DNA from: a virus
Length of the DNA: 30,106 nucleotides
Strand: one strand, 5' to 3'
Virus record (IMG/VR): IMGVR_UViG_3300043543_000352
Coordinates: 1 to 30,106 of that record
Under the pieces are notes generated by a model. That model saw nothing but the letters and a program-made list of their open reading frames with translations. It had not been told where the DNA came from and made no database searches. The position numbers and the translations under genes are program-made. Below, piece after piece: positions 13,213 to 24,140 of this stretch. Positions within the stretch are counted from its first letter, which is position 1. The number at the start of each line of letters is the position of its first letter.

Positions 13213-13241
13213 TTGACAGCTATGCGCCATCATGGTTTAAT
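13213..13241 (+). promoter_or_regulatory. Rightward sigma-70 promoter TTGACA-N17-TTTAAT
   Basis: Consensus -35 TTGACA (13213-13218), seventeen-base spacer, -10 TTTAAT (13236-13241). It starts a second early transcript for the 101-aa gene and the genes beyond, including the tmRNA-like RNA. Confidence 0.75.
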
Positions 13242-13259
13242 TGGGGTAATGAAAAACGA

Positions 13260-13282
13260 GCTGCCCGCACAGGGCGGGCAGC
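13260..13282 (+). promoter_or_regulatory. Leader hairpin before the 101-aa gene
   Basis: GCTGCCCGC and GCGGGCAGC form a 9-bp stem with a five-base loop, about ten bases after the predicted transcription start and ten bases before AAAAGGAGA. No T run follows, so it is not a terminator; a 5' stabilising or translation-tuning hairpin is likelier. Confidence 0.6.
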
Positions 13283-13308
13283 CCAAGCAAACAAAAGGAG
13301 ACCCAGAA

Positions 13309-13614
13309 ATGACCACGCTAATCGAGATGATGACCTTCCCCGCCGCCCCCGTCGAGCCCGTCCTGGCTCACTGCGACCCTCGTGATCGCGAGGCCAACGC
13401 CGCGAACGCCGCCGCGCTCAACCGCTACGCCATCGACTACGCCGCCTGGAAGGCAGGGCGCGAGGCGGCTGCCCGCACCCGCGCCGAGCAGCTGCGGCTG
13501 GCCTACGGCCTGCAGGCCGCCCCTCGCTGGTACTTCTGGCGGACGTACATCTGCTTCACCACGACTGAGCAGGTGTTCACGGACGAGGGCGAGGCTCACC
13601 CCTGGGACGAGTAA
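13309..13614 (+). CDS. Unknown 101-aa early protein
   Basis: AAAAGGAGA lies upstream of ATG at 13309 behind a leader hairpin and a consensus promoter, so it is likely well expressed. The N-terminal part is Pro/Ala-rich (MTTLIEMMTFPAAPVEPVLAH), the centre helical (AANAAALNRYAIDYAAWKAGREAAARTRAEQLRLA), and the C-terminus aromatic and acidic (RWYFWRTYICFTTTEQ ... EAHPWDE). No family recognised. The longer frame from 13141 would read through the promoter and leader and is discarded. Confidence 0.65.
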   Translation: MTTLIEMMTFPAAPVEPVLAHCDPRDREANAANAAALNRYAIDYAAWKAGREAAARTRAEQLRLAYGLQAAPRWYFWRTYICFTTTEQVFTDEGEAHPWDE

Positions 13615-13627
13615 GCCCTCACCCTCG

Positions 13628-13654
13628 CCCCGCCCTCAGCGGCGGGGTCTTCTC
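13628..13654 (+). terminator. Weak terminator or processing hairpin
   Basis: CCCCGCC and GGCGGGG pair over a six-base loop, followed by TCTTCTC rather than a pure T run. It separates the 101-aa gene from the tmRNA-like RNA, whose 5' end would lie two bases downstream. Readthrough or processing would be needed to make that RNA from the upstream promoter. Confidence 0.5.
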
Positions 13655-13656
13655 AT

Positions 13657-13734
13657 GGGGGCGATGTGGTTTGGACGGCGCTGAAGGCCTCCAGGGGCAA
13701 GCGTCGGACGCGGGTTCGACTCCCGCCGCCTCCA
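13657..13734 (+). ncRNA. tmRNA-like RNA reduced to the tRNA-like domain (78 nt)
   Basis: Folds as the tRNA-like domain of tmRNA. Acceptor stem: GGGGGCG (13657-13663) pairs over all seven positions with CGCCTCC (13727-13733), with G3-U70 as the only wobble, and A73 follows (13734). The 5' strand continues ATGTGGTTTGGACGG, close to the degenerate D-arm of tmRNA. A P2-like helix forms from 13676-13682 and 13700-13706 (seven pairs including one G-U). The T arm is GCGGG, loop TTCGACT, CCCGC, preceded by GGAC as in tmRNA. A 17-base loop (13683-13699) replaces the whole mRNA-like domain and pseudoknots. CCA is not encoded. There is no normal anticodon stem, so it is not an ordinary tRNA. G3-U70 and A73 are the known alanyl-tRNA synthetase determinants. 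The family resemblance is seen in sequence; activity is inference. Confidence 0.72.
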
Positions 13735-13766
13735 CTGCGCACCGCGCGGCGCTAACAAACAACCAC

Positions 13767-13788
13767 GCTCACCCGCGCGGGGGTGAGC
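13767..13788 (+). promoter_or_regulatory. Leader hairpin before the 175-aa gene
   Basis: GCTCACCC and GGGTGAGC form an 8-bp stem with a six-base loop, three bases before AAAAGGAGA. Same arrangement as the hairpin at 13260. Confidence 0.6.
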
Positions 13789-13806: not shown

Positions 13807-14334
13807 ATGTACCGCTTCATCATTCCGTGTCCGGCCCCCGTTGGCCGCCTGATCCGCCTGCACCGCGCGGCTAACCGCCGCCGCGGGCGCACCCTGACGC
13901 CCGTCCCGCTCGTCGTGGGGCTGGGGCTTGGCAATCGCGTCGAGCGCGTCGAGCGCGGGCGTGTGGTCGAGCTCCCCTGGCGCGAACGTATGGTGTTCTC
14001 GCCCGCAGGCTGGCAGTGGCAGCCCCCGCTGCCCGCCTCGAAGGCGGCGCCCTCCGCGACCCGCGAGGCGGATGGCCGCGTTCGCATTGCCGACGTGCGC
14101 GGGTATTTGCCGCGCGACCCGCGCGTGAAGCACGGCATCGGCCACAACACCGTCCGCTATGGCCGCGTGGCCGTCGGCTACCTCGACGTGTCCGACCTCG
14201 TGGAGGTGGACACGGGCCGCCGCGACGTGCGCCAGTGGGTGGCGCCCGACGGCACGACCTACACCTACGATATGGGGATCACTCCTGGTGACCCCTACAC
14301 CTTCGAGGTGTACACGCCCGCGAGCGGCGAGTAG
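13807..14334 (+). CDS. Unknown 175-aa early protein
   Basis: ATG at 13807 follows AAAAGGAGA and a leader hairpin almost identical in layout to that of the 101-aa gene. The protein begins MYRFIIPCPAPVGRLIRL, has a basic N-terminal third (ANRRRGRTLTP), then beta-type sequence with paired charged residues (VRIADVRGYLPRD, GYLDVSDLVEVDTGRRDVRQWVAPDGTTYTYDMG). No membrane segment, signal or known motif. Next gene starts 12 bases downstream with its own AGGAGG. Function not recognised. Confidence 0.65.
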   Translation: MYRFIIPCPAPVGRLIRLHRAANRRRGRTLTPVPLVVGLGLGNRVERVERGRVVELPWRERMVFSPAGWQWQPPLPASKAAPSATREADGRVRIADVRGYLPRDPRVKHGIGHNTVRYGRVAVGYLDVSDLVEVDTGRRDVRQWVAPDGTTYTYDMGITPGDPYTFEVYTPASGE

Positions 14335-20333: not shown

Positions 20334-21684
20334 CGACGCGCTCTTCTGCGAGACGTTTCTGCGCGTGCAGGACAAGGACAAGCGCCTCGTGCCGCTGCGC
20401 CTGAACGCCGCCCAGCGCGACTACCTCGCGCGCCGCACGGGGCGCGACATCGTGCTGAAAGCGCGCCAGCTGGGGTTCAGCACGCTGATCCAGGCGCTTT
20501 TCTTCAAGCGCTGCGTGACGTCGACGCAGACGGCGCTCACGATGTGCCACCTCGACGCGACCACGCAAGCGCTGCGGCGCGTCGTCGAGCGCTTTTACGA
20601 CCACATGCCCGCGCACTTTCGTCCGCGCCGCCACCTGGCGAACGCGGTCGTGACGACCTGGCCAGACTTTGACTCCGAGATGGCGATTGCGACGGCGGGC
20701 AGCCCGACGGCCGCGCGCGGCCTCACGGTCAGCCTGTTTCACGGCAGCGAGGTCGCCTTTTGGCGCGACGCGCAGGCCGTCGTCGCGGGCGCGCTGCAGG
20801 CAGCGACCGCCAGCAGCTGGGTCGTGCTGGAGTCAACGGCGAACGGCGCGCAGGGCTGGTTCTACGAGGAGTGCATGCGCGCGCGGCGGGGCGAGTCGAC
20901 GTTTACGCTCCACTTCTACCCGTGGTGGTGGTCGCGCGACTACCGCCTGCCCGTTGAGGGCGCGCTGCGCCGCACCGCTGAGGAGGCGCGGCTGGCCAAC
21001 ACCTACGGGCTCGACGACGGGCAGCTGCTCTGGCGGCGCCACAAGATCAAAGAACTGGGAGAGCGCATGTTTCAGCAAGAATATCCTGAGTCAGTCGAAC
21101 AGGCGTTTTTGCGGGGCGAGGACAGCGTGTTCGCGGGCGCCCAGGAGCGCTTCTACGCTTCACCCCCCGAAGCCCCCGCGCCCGACAGGCGCTACGTAGT
21201 CGGGGTGGACTGGGGGCAGCAGAGCGACTACACGGCGGCCAGCGTCTTCGAGTGCGAGACGGGCGACGAGGTGGCGCTGCTACGCGTGCGCCACCAGCGC
21301 TGGGACGAGATGCGCGCGCAAATCGCAGCGCTCGCGCAGCGCTGGCGCGCGGCGGCCGTGTACGTTGAGAAAAACGCGATGGGCAGCGTCAACGCCGAAG
21401 CCCTGCAGGACGAGCTGCACAAAACGGGGCTCGACGCGGTGGTGGTCGGCTTCGAGATGACCCCTCAGCGCAAGGCGCTTCTGGTCGGGCGCCTCAAACA
21501 GGCGCTTGAGGCGGGCGCGGTGCGGCTGCTCGACGACCCTGCCGCCAACGCGGAGCTGTTGGCCTTCGCCAGCCGACAGACGCCGTCGGGCGCGTGGACG
21601 TACAGCGCGCCTGAGGGCGGCCACGACGACACGGTCATCGCGCGCATGCTGGCCCTGTGGGCGGCGGAGAGGGTGAGCGTATGA
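20305..21684 (+). CDS. Large terminase subunit (459 aa)
   Basis: ATP-driven DNA translocase and headful or cos nuclease. The ATPase Walker A-like motif is K52-ARQLGFST60, as in many phage terminases, and Walker B is SLFHGSEVAFW near residues 145-155. The RNase H-like nuclease has GVDWG with D302, VYVEK with E355, and GGHDDT with D441/D442, the expected acidic triad. The GTG start at 20305 has AGGAGG six bases upstream inside the terS gene. The length is normal for the family. The stop overlaps the portal start. Confidence 0.95.
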   Translation: MSTAWRCLTDDALFCETFLRVQDKDKRLVPLRLNAAQRDYLARRTGRDIVLKARQLGFSTLIQALFFKRCVTSTQTALTMCHLDATTQALRRVVERFYDHMPAHFRPRRHLANAVVTTWPDFDSEMAIATAGSPTAARGLTVSLFHGSEVAFWRDAQAVVAGALQAATASSWVVLESTANGAQGWFYEECMRARRGESTFTLHFYPWWWSRDYRLPVEGALRRTAEEARLANTYGLDDGQLLWRRHKIKELGERMFQQEYPESVEQAFLRGEDSVFAGAQERFYASPPEAPAPDRRYVVGVDWGQQSDYTAASVFECETGDEVALLRVRHQRWDEMRAQIAALAQRWRAAAVYVEKNAMGSVNAEALQDELHKTGLDAVVVGFEMTPQRKALLVGRLKQALEAGAVRLLDDPAANAELLAFASRQTPSGAWTYSAPEGGHDDTVIARMLALWAAERVSV

Positions 21685-24140
21685 ACCTGCCTAAGCGGCT
21701 GCGCCAGCTGCTGCGCCCCCAGCGCAGCGCGCTCTCGCTGCCCACCTGGGTCAGCGCGACTGCGGGGCTGACCTACCCCAACCAAGACATTGCGTCAACG
21801 CGCGCGGGGTTTGCCGCCGCCTACACCGCCGTCATCGCCGTCTACCGCGCCGTCAACATCCGCGCCGACGCGCTCAACGCGCTGCCGTGGTGCGTGAAGC
21901 AGCTGCCCGCGGACGGCAATTACGAGGCGGCGCAGGTCGTCGCGACGTCAAAGCACCCCTGGGGCCATGCCTTCGCGCGCGCGGTGGCGCGTCACCGCGT
22001 CGACACCGGGCGCGCGTTCTTCAAGACGCTGCAGGCTTACATGGATCTCTTTGGCGAGATCTACGTCGAGCTGGCGGACGCGCCCGGCGGCCTCGCGCTG
22101 CGCGTCGTCAACAGCCAATACGTGACGCCTGTGGTCGTGGACGACCAAATTGTGGCGTATCAGTACACGGGCGGCAGCGCGCCCGTGACGCTCGCGGCAG
22201 AGCAGGTGTGCTACAGCGCGGCGTTCAACCCCTACGACGACCTGCGCGGGCTTTCGGTCGTGGCGGTGGCGCTCGACGCGGTCAACGTCGAGCGCAACCT
22301 GAAGCGCTTCTTGCACGACTTCTTCGTCAACAACGCCCGCCCCGGCATGATCCTGTCGCCCGCAGGCGACGACATGTTCACCCAGCAGCAAAAGGCCGAG
22401 ATCGTGCGCGAGCTGCAGGATTTTCACCGGGGCAGCGGCAGCCAGTACGCCGCCTTCGTCGCGCCCAAGGCCATCTCGATCACGGCGCTCGACCAGCCCA
22501 ACCTGGAGAGCAACTACGCGATCAGCCAAACCATCCAGCGCGAGATCTACACCGCCTTCGGCGTGCCGCTCTCGATGGCGGGCGACGACCGCGCCACGAC
22601 CTACAAGCAGGGCAGAGAGGTGTACGAGAACTTCGTCGCAAACACCATTCTGCCCCTCGCGGTCGACGTGCAGGAGTTCGTGAACGCGCAGATCATGCCG
22701 CGCTTCGACCTGCGCGCCTTGTTCGAGTTCGACCTGTCGCACCTGCAGTACGTGAGCGACGCTCAGATGGCGACACACCAAATGGCGCGCGAGGACTTCA
22801 GCGCGGGCATCATCACGCTCAACGAGGCGCGCGCCCGCATCGGCGCGCCCGCCCTCGACGACCGACCTGCCGACGCGCTGCCCAACCCTGTGCGCGCCGC
22901 GGTCGACTTGACGCCGACCGCCGCCATGGCCGAGGAGGCGCGGCGAGGTCTCCAGTGGCGGCGCGAGCACGGCCGCGGCGGCACGCTCATCGGCGTCGCG
23001 CGCGCGAGAGACATCGCGAACCGCCGCCGCCTGTCGGCCGACACAGTCAAGCGCATGGCGGCCTACTTCGCGCGCCACGCGCGCGACCGCGAGGCGCAGG
23101 GTTGGCGCCCCGGCGAGCCAGGCTACCCCAGCGCAGGTCGCATCGCGTGGGCGCTCTGGGGCGGCGACCCAGGGCGCGACTGGGCGGCGCGCAAGCTGGA
23201 GCAGCTCTCTCAACCCGCAGCCGCGTCCGCGCCGCCCCCTCTGCCTGACGCGCCGCTGAAGGGGGTGGACAATTTGCTCGACACGAGCGCGCGCGCCATG
23301 ATCGCGCGCGGGGAGCGCCCAGGGCGCTGGTCGCGCGCGGCGGCGCTCAAGGAGCTCGACGCTTGGGAGCGCTTTCTGGCGCGCCGCGCTGACAAAGCGA
23401 ACGCGCGCGCCTTTGTGCCCCAGGCCTGCGCGGGGCGCGCCGCCGACATCGTCAGCGCGGCATTAGCGGCTGGCGTCCCGCCCGCGGCGGCGATTGCGGC
23501 AGGGCGGCGCACGCTGCTGCCGCGGGCGTTCGCGCGCGAGCTCGCGCAGCTGCTGCTCGTGATGGCGGGCGTCAAGTCGATCGAGGACGTGCGGGACGAG
23601 TTTCGCGCGCAGCTCGCGCCTGTTTTGTTCAGCGCCAACTTCAAGGAGATCGAGCGCCGACGCGCGGGCACGATTGTGCGCTTTTTGATCGCAAAGTACG
23701 TGAACATCGCATATAGAGAGGGCATGCGCGAGGTGGGCGTCGAGGGCGAACCCAGCGAAGAGGAGCGTCAGCAGATCCGACAGCTCATCAAAGACCAATC
23801 CCCCTTTGTGAGTGAGCTGACGAAGGTGCTGCGCGACGAGACGCTCAGCGAGGCTGAGCTGGTCAGCCGCGTTGAAGCCTGGGTCAACGGCGCGTTGATG
23901 CCAGCGTACAACGCAGGATTGGCGGCGGGCGGCGAGAACGGCATGTTCGAGTGGCGCGAGGGCGATACAATCGAGAAGTGTAAAGACTGCCTGCGCCTCG
24001 ACGGCCAGCGCCACCGCTGGCGCGACTGGGCAGCGCGCAATCTGCTGCCTGGCACGCCGGGGCAGGCCACCGAGTGCCAGGGCTTTAACTGTGAATGCAA
24101 GTTGATCCCCGTGAGCGGGGAGGCGAGAGGAGATTTTTGA
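21681..24140 (+). CDS. Portal protein fused to MuF-like head protein (819 aa)
   Basis: Residues 1 to ~400 are an HK97-type portal (AYTAVIAVYRAVNIRADALNALPW, and SQTIQREIYTAFGVPLSMAGDD near the clip/stem). Residues ~415-510 are a distinct module (ARRGLQWRREHGRGGT, GVARARDIANRR, YPSAGRIAWALWGGDPGRDWA) also known in other phage head proteins but without a firm function. Residues ~520-819 resemble phage Mu F-type minor head proteins, ending in a Cys cluster CKDCLRLDGQRH (from ~767) and CQGFNCECKL (to ~803). The protein is about twice usual portal size. Start at 21681 overlaps the terminase stop; the stop overlaps the protease-capsid start (TGATG). The MuF part may be cleaved by the protease encoded next. 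Confidence 0.88.
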   Translation: MNLPKRLRQLLRPQRSALSLPTWVSATAGLTYPNQDIASTRAGFAAAYTAVIAVYRAVNIRADALNALPWCVKQLPADGNYEAAQVVATSKHPWGHAFARAVARHRVDTGRAFFKTLQAYMDLFGEIYVELADAPGGLALRVVNSQYVTPVVVDDQIVAYQYTGGSAPVTLAAEQVCYSAAFNPYDDLRGLSVVAVALDAVNVERNLKRFLHDFFVNNARPGMILSPAGDDMFTQQQKAEIVRELQDFHRGSGSQYAAFVAPKAISITALDQPNLESNYAISQTIQREIYTAFGVPLSMAGDDRATTYKQGREVYENFVANTILPLAVDVQEFVNAQIMPRFDLRALFEFDLSHLQYVSDAQMATHQMAREDFSAGIITLNEARARIGAPALDDRPADALPNPVRAAVDLTPTAAMAEEARRGLQWRREHGRGGTLIGVARARDIANRRRLSADTVKRMAAYFARHARDREAQGWRPGEPGYPSAGRIAWALWGGDPGRDWAARKLEQLSQPAAASAPPPLPDAPLKGVDNLLDTSARAMIARGERPGRWSRAAALKELDAWERFLARRADKANARAFVPQACAGRAADIVSAALAAGVPPAAAIAAGRRTLLPRAFARELAQLLLVMAGVKSIEDVRDEFRAQLAPVLFSANFKEIERRRAGTIVRFLIAKYVNIAYREGMREVGVEGEPSEEERQQIRQLIKDQSPFVSELTKVLRDETLSEAELVSRVEAWVNGALMPAYNAGLAAGGENGMFEWREGDTIEKCKDCLRLDGQRHRWRDWAARNLLPGTPGQATECQGFNCECKLIPVSGEARGDF

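Follow-up and report, generated by a model that had tools for sequence, protein, structure and literature searches.

Mycobacteriophage DS6A is listed as carrying a “TLD only” tmRNA in PMC4131195 and PMC11915505 (citing Mao et al. 2009), and the same papers describe a DS6A-like molecule that, chargeable or not, strongly inhibits E. coli tmRNA, perhaps via titration of SmpB. According to PMC4131195, this inhibition by TLD-only RNA is independent of charging. In organelles, plastid tmRNAs of ~65 bases without a CDS occur in Mallomonadaceae (PMC11915505) and tmRNAs without an mRNA-like region in jakobid mitochondria (PMC3985003, PMC11915505); in mitochondria, the MLD-less tmRNAs have been retained alongside SmpB and are believed to be beneficial (PMC11915505). 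In addition, a T. thermophilus TLD, built from 25 residues of the 5′ end and 34 of the 3′ end with a UUCG join, has been cocrystallized with SmpB (PDB 2CZJ; PMC3985003). The G3-U70 pair is completely conserved in tmRNA (PMC3985003).

Here, we analyze a stretch of virus DNA over its full 30,106 bases (the window), in which positions 13657 to 13734 almost certainly constitute a TLD-only tmRNA gene, or mini-tmRNA. Like that of DS6A, it is phage-encoded, with little beyond the tRNA-like domain and no tag frame; DS6A is the single published phage example and is compared with the mini-tmRNA of the window by description only. The organellar tmRNAs likewise have acceptor and T arms and no tag frame or pseudoknots, but they reside in the resident genome and some are two-piece, whereas the phage form occurs alongside a complete tmRNA of the host. 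With the canonical one-piece tmRNA (RF00023; e.g., the full tmRNA of phage PegLeg), the mini-tmRNA has in common the G3-U70 acceptor stem, A73, the stemless D region, P2, and the T arm, yet the resume codon, the tag frame, and the pseudoknots are missing from it, and it measures 78 nt versus about 350 to 400 nt. The T. thermophilus construct is of nearly the same design, with tmRNA ends joined by a short capped P2, but it is man-made and has neither the internal loop nor the second hairpin present in most natural copies. A TLD-only phage tmRNA is therefore not unprecedented, since DS6A precedes it, while none of the open-access papers searched describes a broad family of such RNAs in phages. 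What is new here is the breadth, the invariant alanine identity, the distal hairpin, and the fixed position.

Structure and surroundings of the element

A cmscan search against all of Rfam returned RF00023 (tmRNA) as the sole match of the element (13657-13737, plus strand, 70.1 bits, E value of 1.4e-25; model cutoff, 47 bits). The alignment spans model positions 1 to 374, including both ends, and 308 of the 374 positions, the tag-coding middle, are deleted. An earlier note, made from the letters alone, had called the element a stand-alone tRNA-like domain without the mRNA-like part and had proposed an Infernal/Rfam check, and this end-to-end match bears the claim out. The resume codon and tag reading frame are absent from the alignment, as are the pseudoknots, whose region is missing relative to RF00023 with only a 4-pair hairpin present.

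Counted to the discriminator base A73, the gene is 78 nt long, and it does not encode CCA, positions 13735-13737 reading CTG. Its minimum-free-energy fold is the predicted TLD fold, all parts lying on the plus strand. The 5′ strand of the acceptor stem, GGGGGCG (13657-13663), holds G3 and forms 7 of 7 pairs with 13727-13733, where the 3′ strand CGCCTCC contains U70 and is followed by A73 at 13734 (feature 13727-13734). The stemless tmRNA-type D region, ATGTGGTTTGGA (13664-13675), fits the RF00023 consensus; relatives mostly have GGTTTCGA. The P2 arm (13676-13706), drawn from the fold, the pairing in relatives, and covariation, comprises a helix, an A-rich internal loop, and a distal hairpin. 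Its helix joins CGGCGCT (13676-13682) to AGCGTCG (13700-13706) in seven pairs, including one G-U, and closes a 17-base loop (13683-13699), within which the fold places a distal 4-pair hairpin (13687-13690 with 13695-13698; loop, CCAG) that the earlier note had missed. The T arm, GCGGG-TTCGACT-CCCGC (13710-13726), forms 5 of 5 pairs. The full acceptor stem, stemless D region, P2 with 17-base loop, and T arm within 78 nt, as first described from the letters, are thus all confirmed. Fold stability by itself is unremarkable (z, -1.25), so the case for the element rests on homology and covariation.

A tRNA identity was ruled out: the anticodon arm is missing, ARAGORN finds 0 tRNA and 0 tmRNA genes in the window, and cmscan gives no match to the tRNA model (RF00005) or a permuted-tmRNA model anywhere in it.

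The carrier is a whole IMG/VR virus record, possibly a genome fragment, with genes for a terminase, portal, major head protein, DnaB-like helicase, sliding clamp, and RusA. A near search of phage DNA gave no DNA-level match to known phages, and searches with the terminase, helicase, portal, and neighboring genes returned distant relatives or nothing, with no close relative among them; the stretches around the terminase relatives contained no tmRNA. Residues 420 to 515 of the portal-type protein (21657-24140) share 63% identity with a segment found in Roseobacter phage CRP-821 and its relatives, where the annotated feature at that place is a major capsid protein; the remainder of the protein had no match to these phages in the same search.

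Directly upstream of the mini-tmRNA lies an ORF of 101 amino acids (13309-13614, plus strand) with no Pfam match. Between the two, we read from the sequence a terminator-like hairpin of 8 pairs (13627-13648; whole feature 13627-13656, plus strand), whose tail TCTTCTCAT ends adjoining the first base of the mini-tmRNA. A putative consensus promoter, TTGACA-17-TTTAAT (13213-13241, plus strand), precedes both the ORF and the mini-tmRNA; the promoter scan, in which the second hexamer must have A as its position 2, did not return it. Downstream, an 8-pair hairpin (13767-13788, plus strand), visible by eye and in an inverted-repeat scan, forms part of the leader of an ORF of 175 amino acids (13807-14334, plus strand) with no Pfam or PHROG match. 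A repeated leader design, consisting of a GC-rich hairpin and then AAAAGGAG (13257-13285 and 13767-13788), precedes the ORFs at 13309 and 13807.

Relatives in phages and conservation of the fold

Strict patterns that fixed the T arm, the D region, and the letters GGACG returned nothing in viral or genome contigs, and relaxing the letters revealed the family. The first relaxed pattern, which fixes U70 beforehand, matched 41 viral contigs, most of them with compact TLD-only elements and a few with full tmRNAs; the second, which fixes no acceptor-stem letter, matched at least 119 viral stretches and 24 genome contigs. The mini-tmRNA of the window belongs to a family of TLD-only tmRNAs in varied phages. 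The two DNA patterns followed by an anchored structure scan yielded at least 100 distinct mini-tmRNAs, that of the window included, a number that is a lower bound from a pattern-gathered set whose makeup is not a census. Genome-contig matches in Methanothermococcus, Nodosilinea, and others were dropped for lack of the structure.

Most carriers are uncultured viruses, the metagenomic contigs among them often being fragments; the others are a few contigs of bacteria and the named Streptomyces phages GiJojo, Shaeky, BRock, and pSt2308, and BLAST gives matches in LuckySocke and Alone3 as well. Most of these genes escape ARAGORN: at only 5 of 137 loci does some call overlap the mini-tmRNA. Several annotated phages have no feature, or a protein call, at the site: nothing is annotated at the mini-tmRNA of Shaeky or BRock, and gene 44 of GiJojo (hypothetical protein; L046, 2001-2243) overlaps that of GiJojo.

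Short 3′ matches in many further phages were left uncounted, being permuted or one-piece full tmRNAs, scars, or other things. We observe unannotated full-length permuted tmRNAs near 1970-2280 in phages SM1, PHB04, DLP_6, XacN1, and Rb1 (L049, L050, and L053 to L055). In Tunturiibacter phage Tunturi_4 (L051), the gene for a peptide release factor with an RF-1 domain (1618-1965) immediately precedes a permuted tmRNA that is not annotated (1970-2379), possibly as a two-part ribosome-rescue module. GOLLD RNAs are found near tmRNA/tRNA genes in mycobacteriophage PegLeg (L052, 2804-3217) and Xanthomonas phage XacN1 (L054, 3309-3722).

G3-U70 and A73 are present in all 100 distinct members listed, as they are in the window, in line with the alanine-type acceptor that had been proposed for this element, and pairs 1-72 and 2-71 are likewise invariant in these members. 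Compensated variation among the same 100 members affects acceptor pairs 4 to 6, T-stem pairs 49 to 51, and P2 pairs 2 to 8, with many pair types; compensatory change in relatives, whose absence the earlier note had held decisive against its reading, is thus abundant. Because the anchored scan itself required pairing, P2 was retested on all pattern returns with patterns that impose no P2 pairing: its first five pairs form in 93% of cells (31 sequences) and 95% of cells (75 sequences) versus 56% with arms shuffled. At one homologous locus represented by ten sequences, 14 of 23 pairs have changed on both sides and 97.8% of cells are paired, covariation there including P2 and the distal hairpin. 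None of 500 shuffles of these ten sequences reaches the observed values, and slid registers are only about 41 to 52% paired. A MAFFT alignment of 46 members was left out of any covariance model, as the variable length of the D region had caused the 5′ acceptor strand to be misaligned.

Length is nearly constant, at 77 to 80 nt in 86 of the 100 members listed, under patterns that permitted a wide range. The distal hairpin has at least 3 pairs in 90% of the 92 long-arm members versus 55% for shuffled loops, the other 8 members listed having a short capped P2 only. Homology between this hairpin and the second P2 segment of a full tmRNA, of which it would be a remnant, could not be demonstrated. 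A hidden tag frame in the P2 arm was rejected: a GCN-to-stop stretch is absent from the arm in the window and occurs in 25 of the 100 members listed, among which it varies in kind.

Genomic position and the ssrA-remnant reading

In 30 viral contigs the mini-tmRNA lies upstream of a major capsid gene, at a distance of 108 to 124 nt in 28 of them and 266 to 299 nt in the other 2. The capsid proteins of these contigs are about 48 to 100% identical to the reference, so that the mini-tmRNA is maintained at the capsid locus while its neighbors diverge; two further weak capsid matches lie elsewhere. The capsid-locus copies usually have a rho-independent terminator before them and the capsid leader after them, and a terminator like that of the window precedes the mini-tmRNA in most of the capsid-locus relatives shown. 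Other groups differ: in a Parafrankia contig the gene is found between those for the small and the large terminase, in an Acidimicrobiales contig it is near a head gene, and in the Streptomyces phages it is part of a tRNA array. At 109 of the 137 loci, which are partial, there is no other tRNA call.

Such positions could suggest a cis element whose tRNA-like fold only marks a cutting site for RNase P or tRNase Z or insulates neighboring transcripts, as the setting between terminator and capsid leader, and in the window between two small genes, would allow. However, G3-U70 and the tmRNA-type D region are kept though RNase P cutting needs neither, and the location varies among phage groups, which makes this explanation improbable.

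Phages do integrate into ssrA, and scar-like 3′ ssrA ends beside integrases, with the 5′ half missing, are seen in phages Milly, TClif, and Yeezy (L200 to L202), so a functionless remnant left by integration or by mid-deletion of a captured tmRNA was also considered. Against this, the element keeps both ends, its 5′ half being tmRNA and pairing with the 3′ half, whereas the scars are without a 5′ half; this excludes an integration scar in ssrA and agrees with the earlier note, which had argued against a simple scar from the joint retention of both strands of every helix. No integrase was found among the window proteins scanned, which are part of the ORFs. The extensive compensatory change, and a gene held at one locus amid diverging neighbors, also speak against a remnant, which we consider extremely improbable for the element and effectively refuted for the family.

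Possible roles during infection

SmpB was absent from 39 of 39 carrier virus records and from the window, in a search whose control was positive in ten bacterial genomes; host SmpB would therefore be needed. Three bacterial genomes with mini-bearing contigs have a separate full tmRNA of 350 to 384 nt with a tag, as called by ARAGORN. In a census of the order of the Parafrankia genome, 34 of 35 genomes had one full tmRNA; for mini-tmRNAs this census is uninformative, as it scored 30 candidates per genome and missed the Parafrankia genome's own copy. One virus record of 123,582 bases (L062) contains both a mini-tmRNA (46486-46567) and a full-length tmRNA (77588-77979).

The best explanation, to which we assign a probability of roughly 0.6, is that an alanine-charged mini-tmRNA relies on the SmpB of the host and is a competitor of host tmRNA. 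Following tmRNA biology, tRNA-processing enzymes would trim the transcript, CCA would be added, host AlaRS would charge it with alanine, and host SmpB and EF-Tu would bind the charged molecule, which would then compete with host tmRNA. Since it has no tag frame, tagging and proteolysis would not be directed, and host trans-translation would be blunted during infection; interference with host trans-translation is accordingly its probable net effect, held with similar confidence. The reading in the earlier note as a whole, from the alanine-type acceptor to a possible decoy role, is supported in that it withstood all computational tests.

The invariant alanine identity suggests a charged mini-tmRNA that works at the ribosome and is more than an uncharged SmpB sponge. 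Inhibition by TLD-only RNA needs no charging according to PMC4131195, so simple titration leaves the invariant G3-U70 unexplained, and the pair may hint at a positive function, for example tagless rescue. Here, the charged mini-tmRNA with host SmpB would enter stalled ribosomes, take over the nascent chain, and add alanine, so that the ribosome is recycled without a degradation tag and phage proteins from broken mRNAs are spared. The retention of G3-U70 and A73 in all 100 members listed, stricter than an uncharged sponge requires, fits this idea, as do the near-constant length of 77 to 80 nt and the persistence of mitochondrial MLD-less tmRNAs with SmpB, where they are thought to be helpful (PMC11915505). 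However, no known step frees the nascent chain without a stop codon, and the TLD-only RNA of PMC4131195 inhibited E. coli tmRNA. We regard tagless rescue as unlikely, though the strict G3-U70, which argues for a charging that a sponge would not need, leaves it the main rival to competition with host tmRNA.

A phage-borne and widespread family might also act as a decoy against host defenses that sense or attack tmRNA or SmpB, such as tmRNA-cutting nucleases or the CoCoNuT systems, whose SmpB-like folds are predicted to bind tmRNA (PMC11090510). These targets are predictions, and no defense gene is linked to the mini-tmRNA loci here, so that we give this explanation little credence.

Beyond competition with host tmRNA, a bolder reading, which we hold to be possible but rather doubtful, is that dozens of phage lineages have kept a charged tagless tmRNA that, with host SmpB, actively rescues ribosomes or adds alanine, or else serves as an antidefense decoy, and is no mere inhibitor. 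If true, the constant location ahead of the capsid gene seen in one group would tie such a molecule to late, high-output translation. A family of at least 100 members, versus one example named in the literature searched, with invariant alanine identity, near-constant length, a distal hairpin in most and, in one group, a fixed position, implies selection to tamper with trans-translation in infection, which phage biology has hardly studied, and the cultured Streptomyces phages Shaeky, GiJojo, and BRock make the family directly testable.
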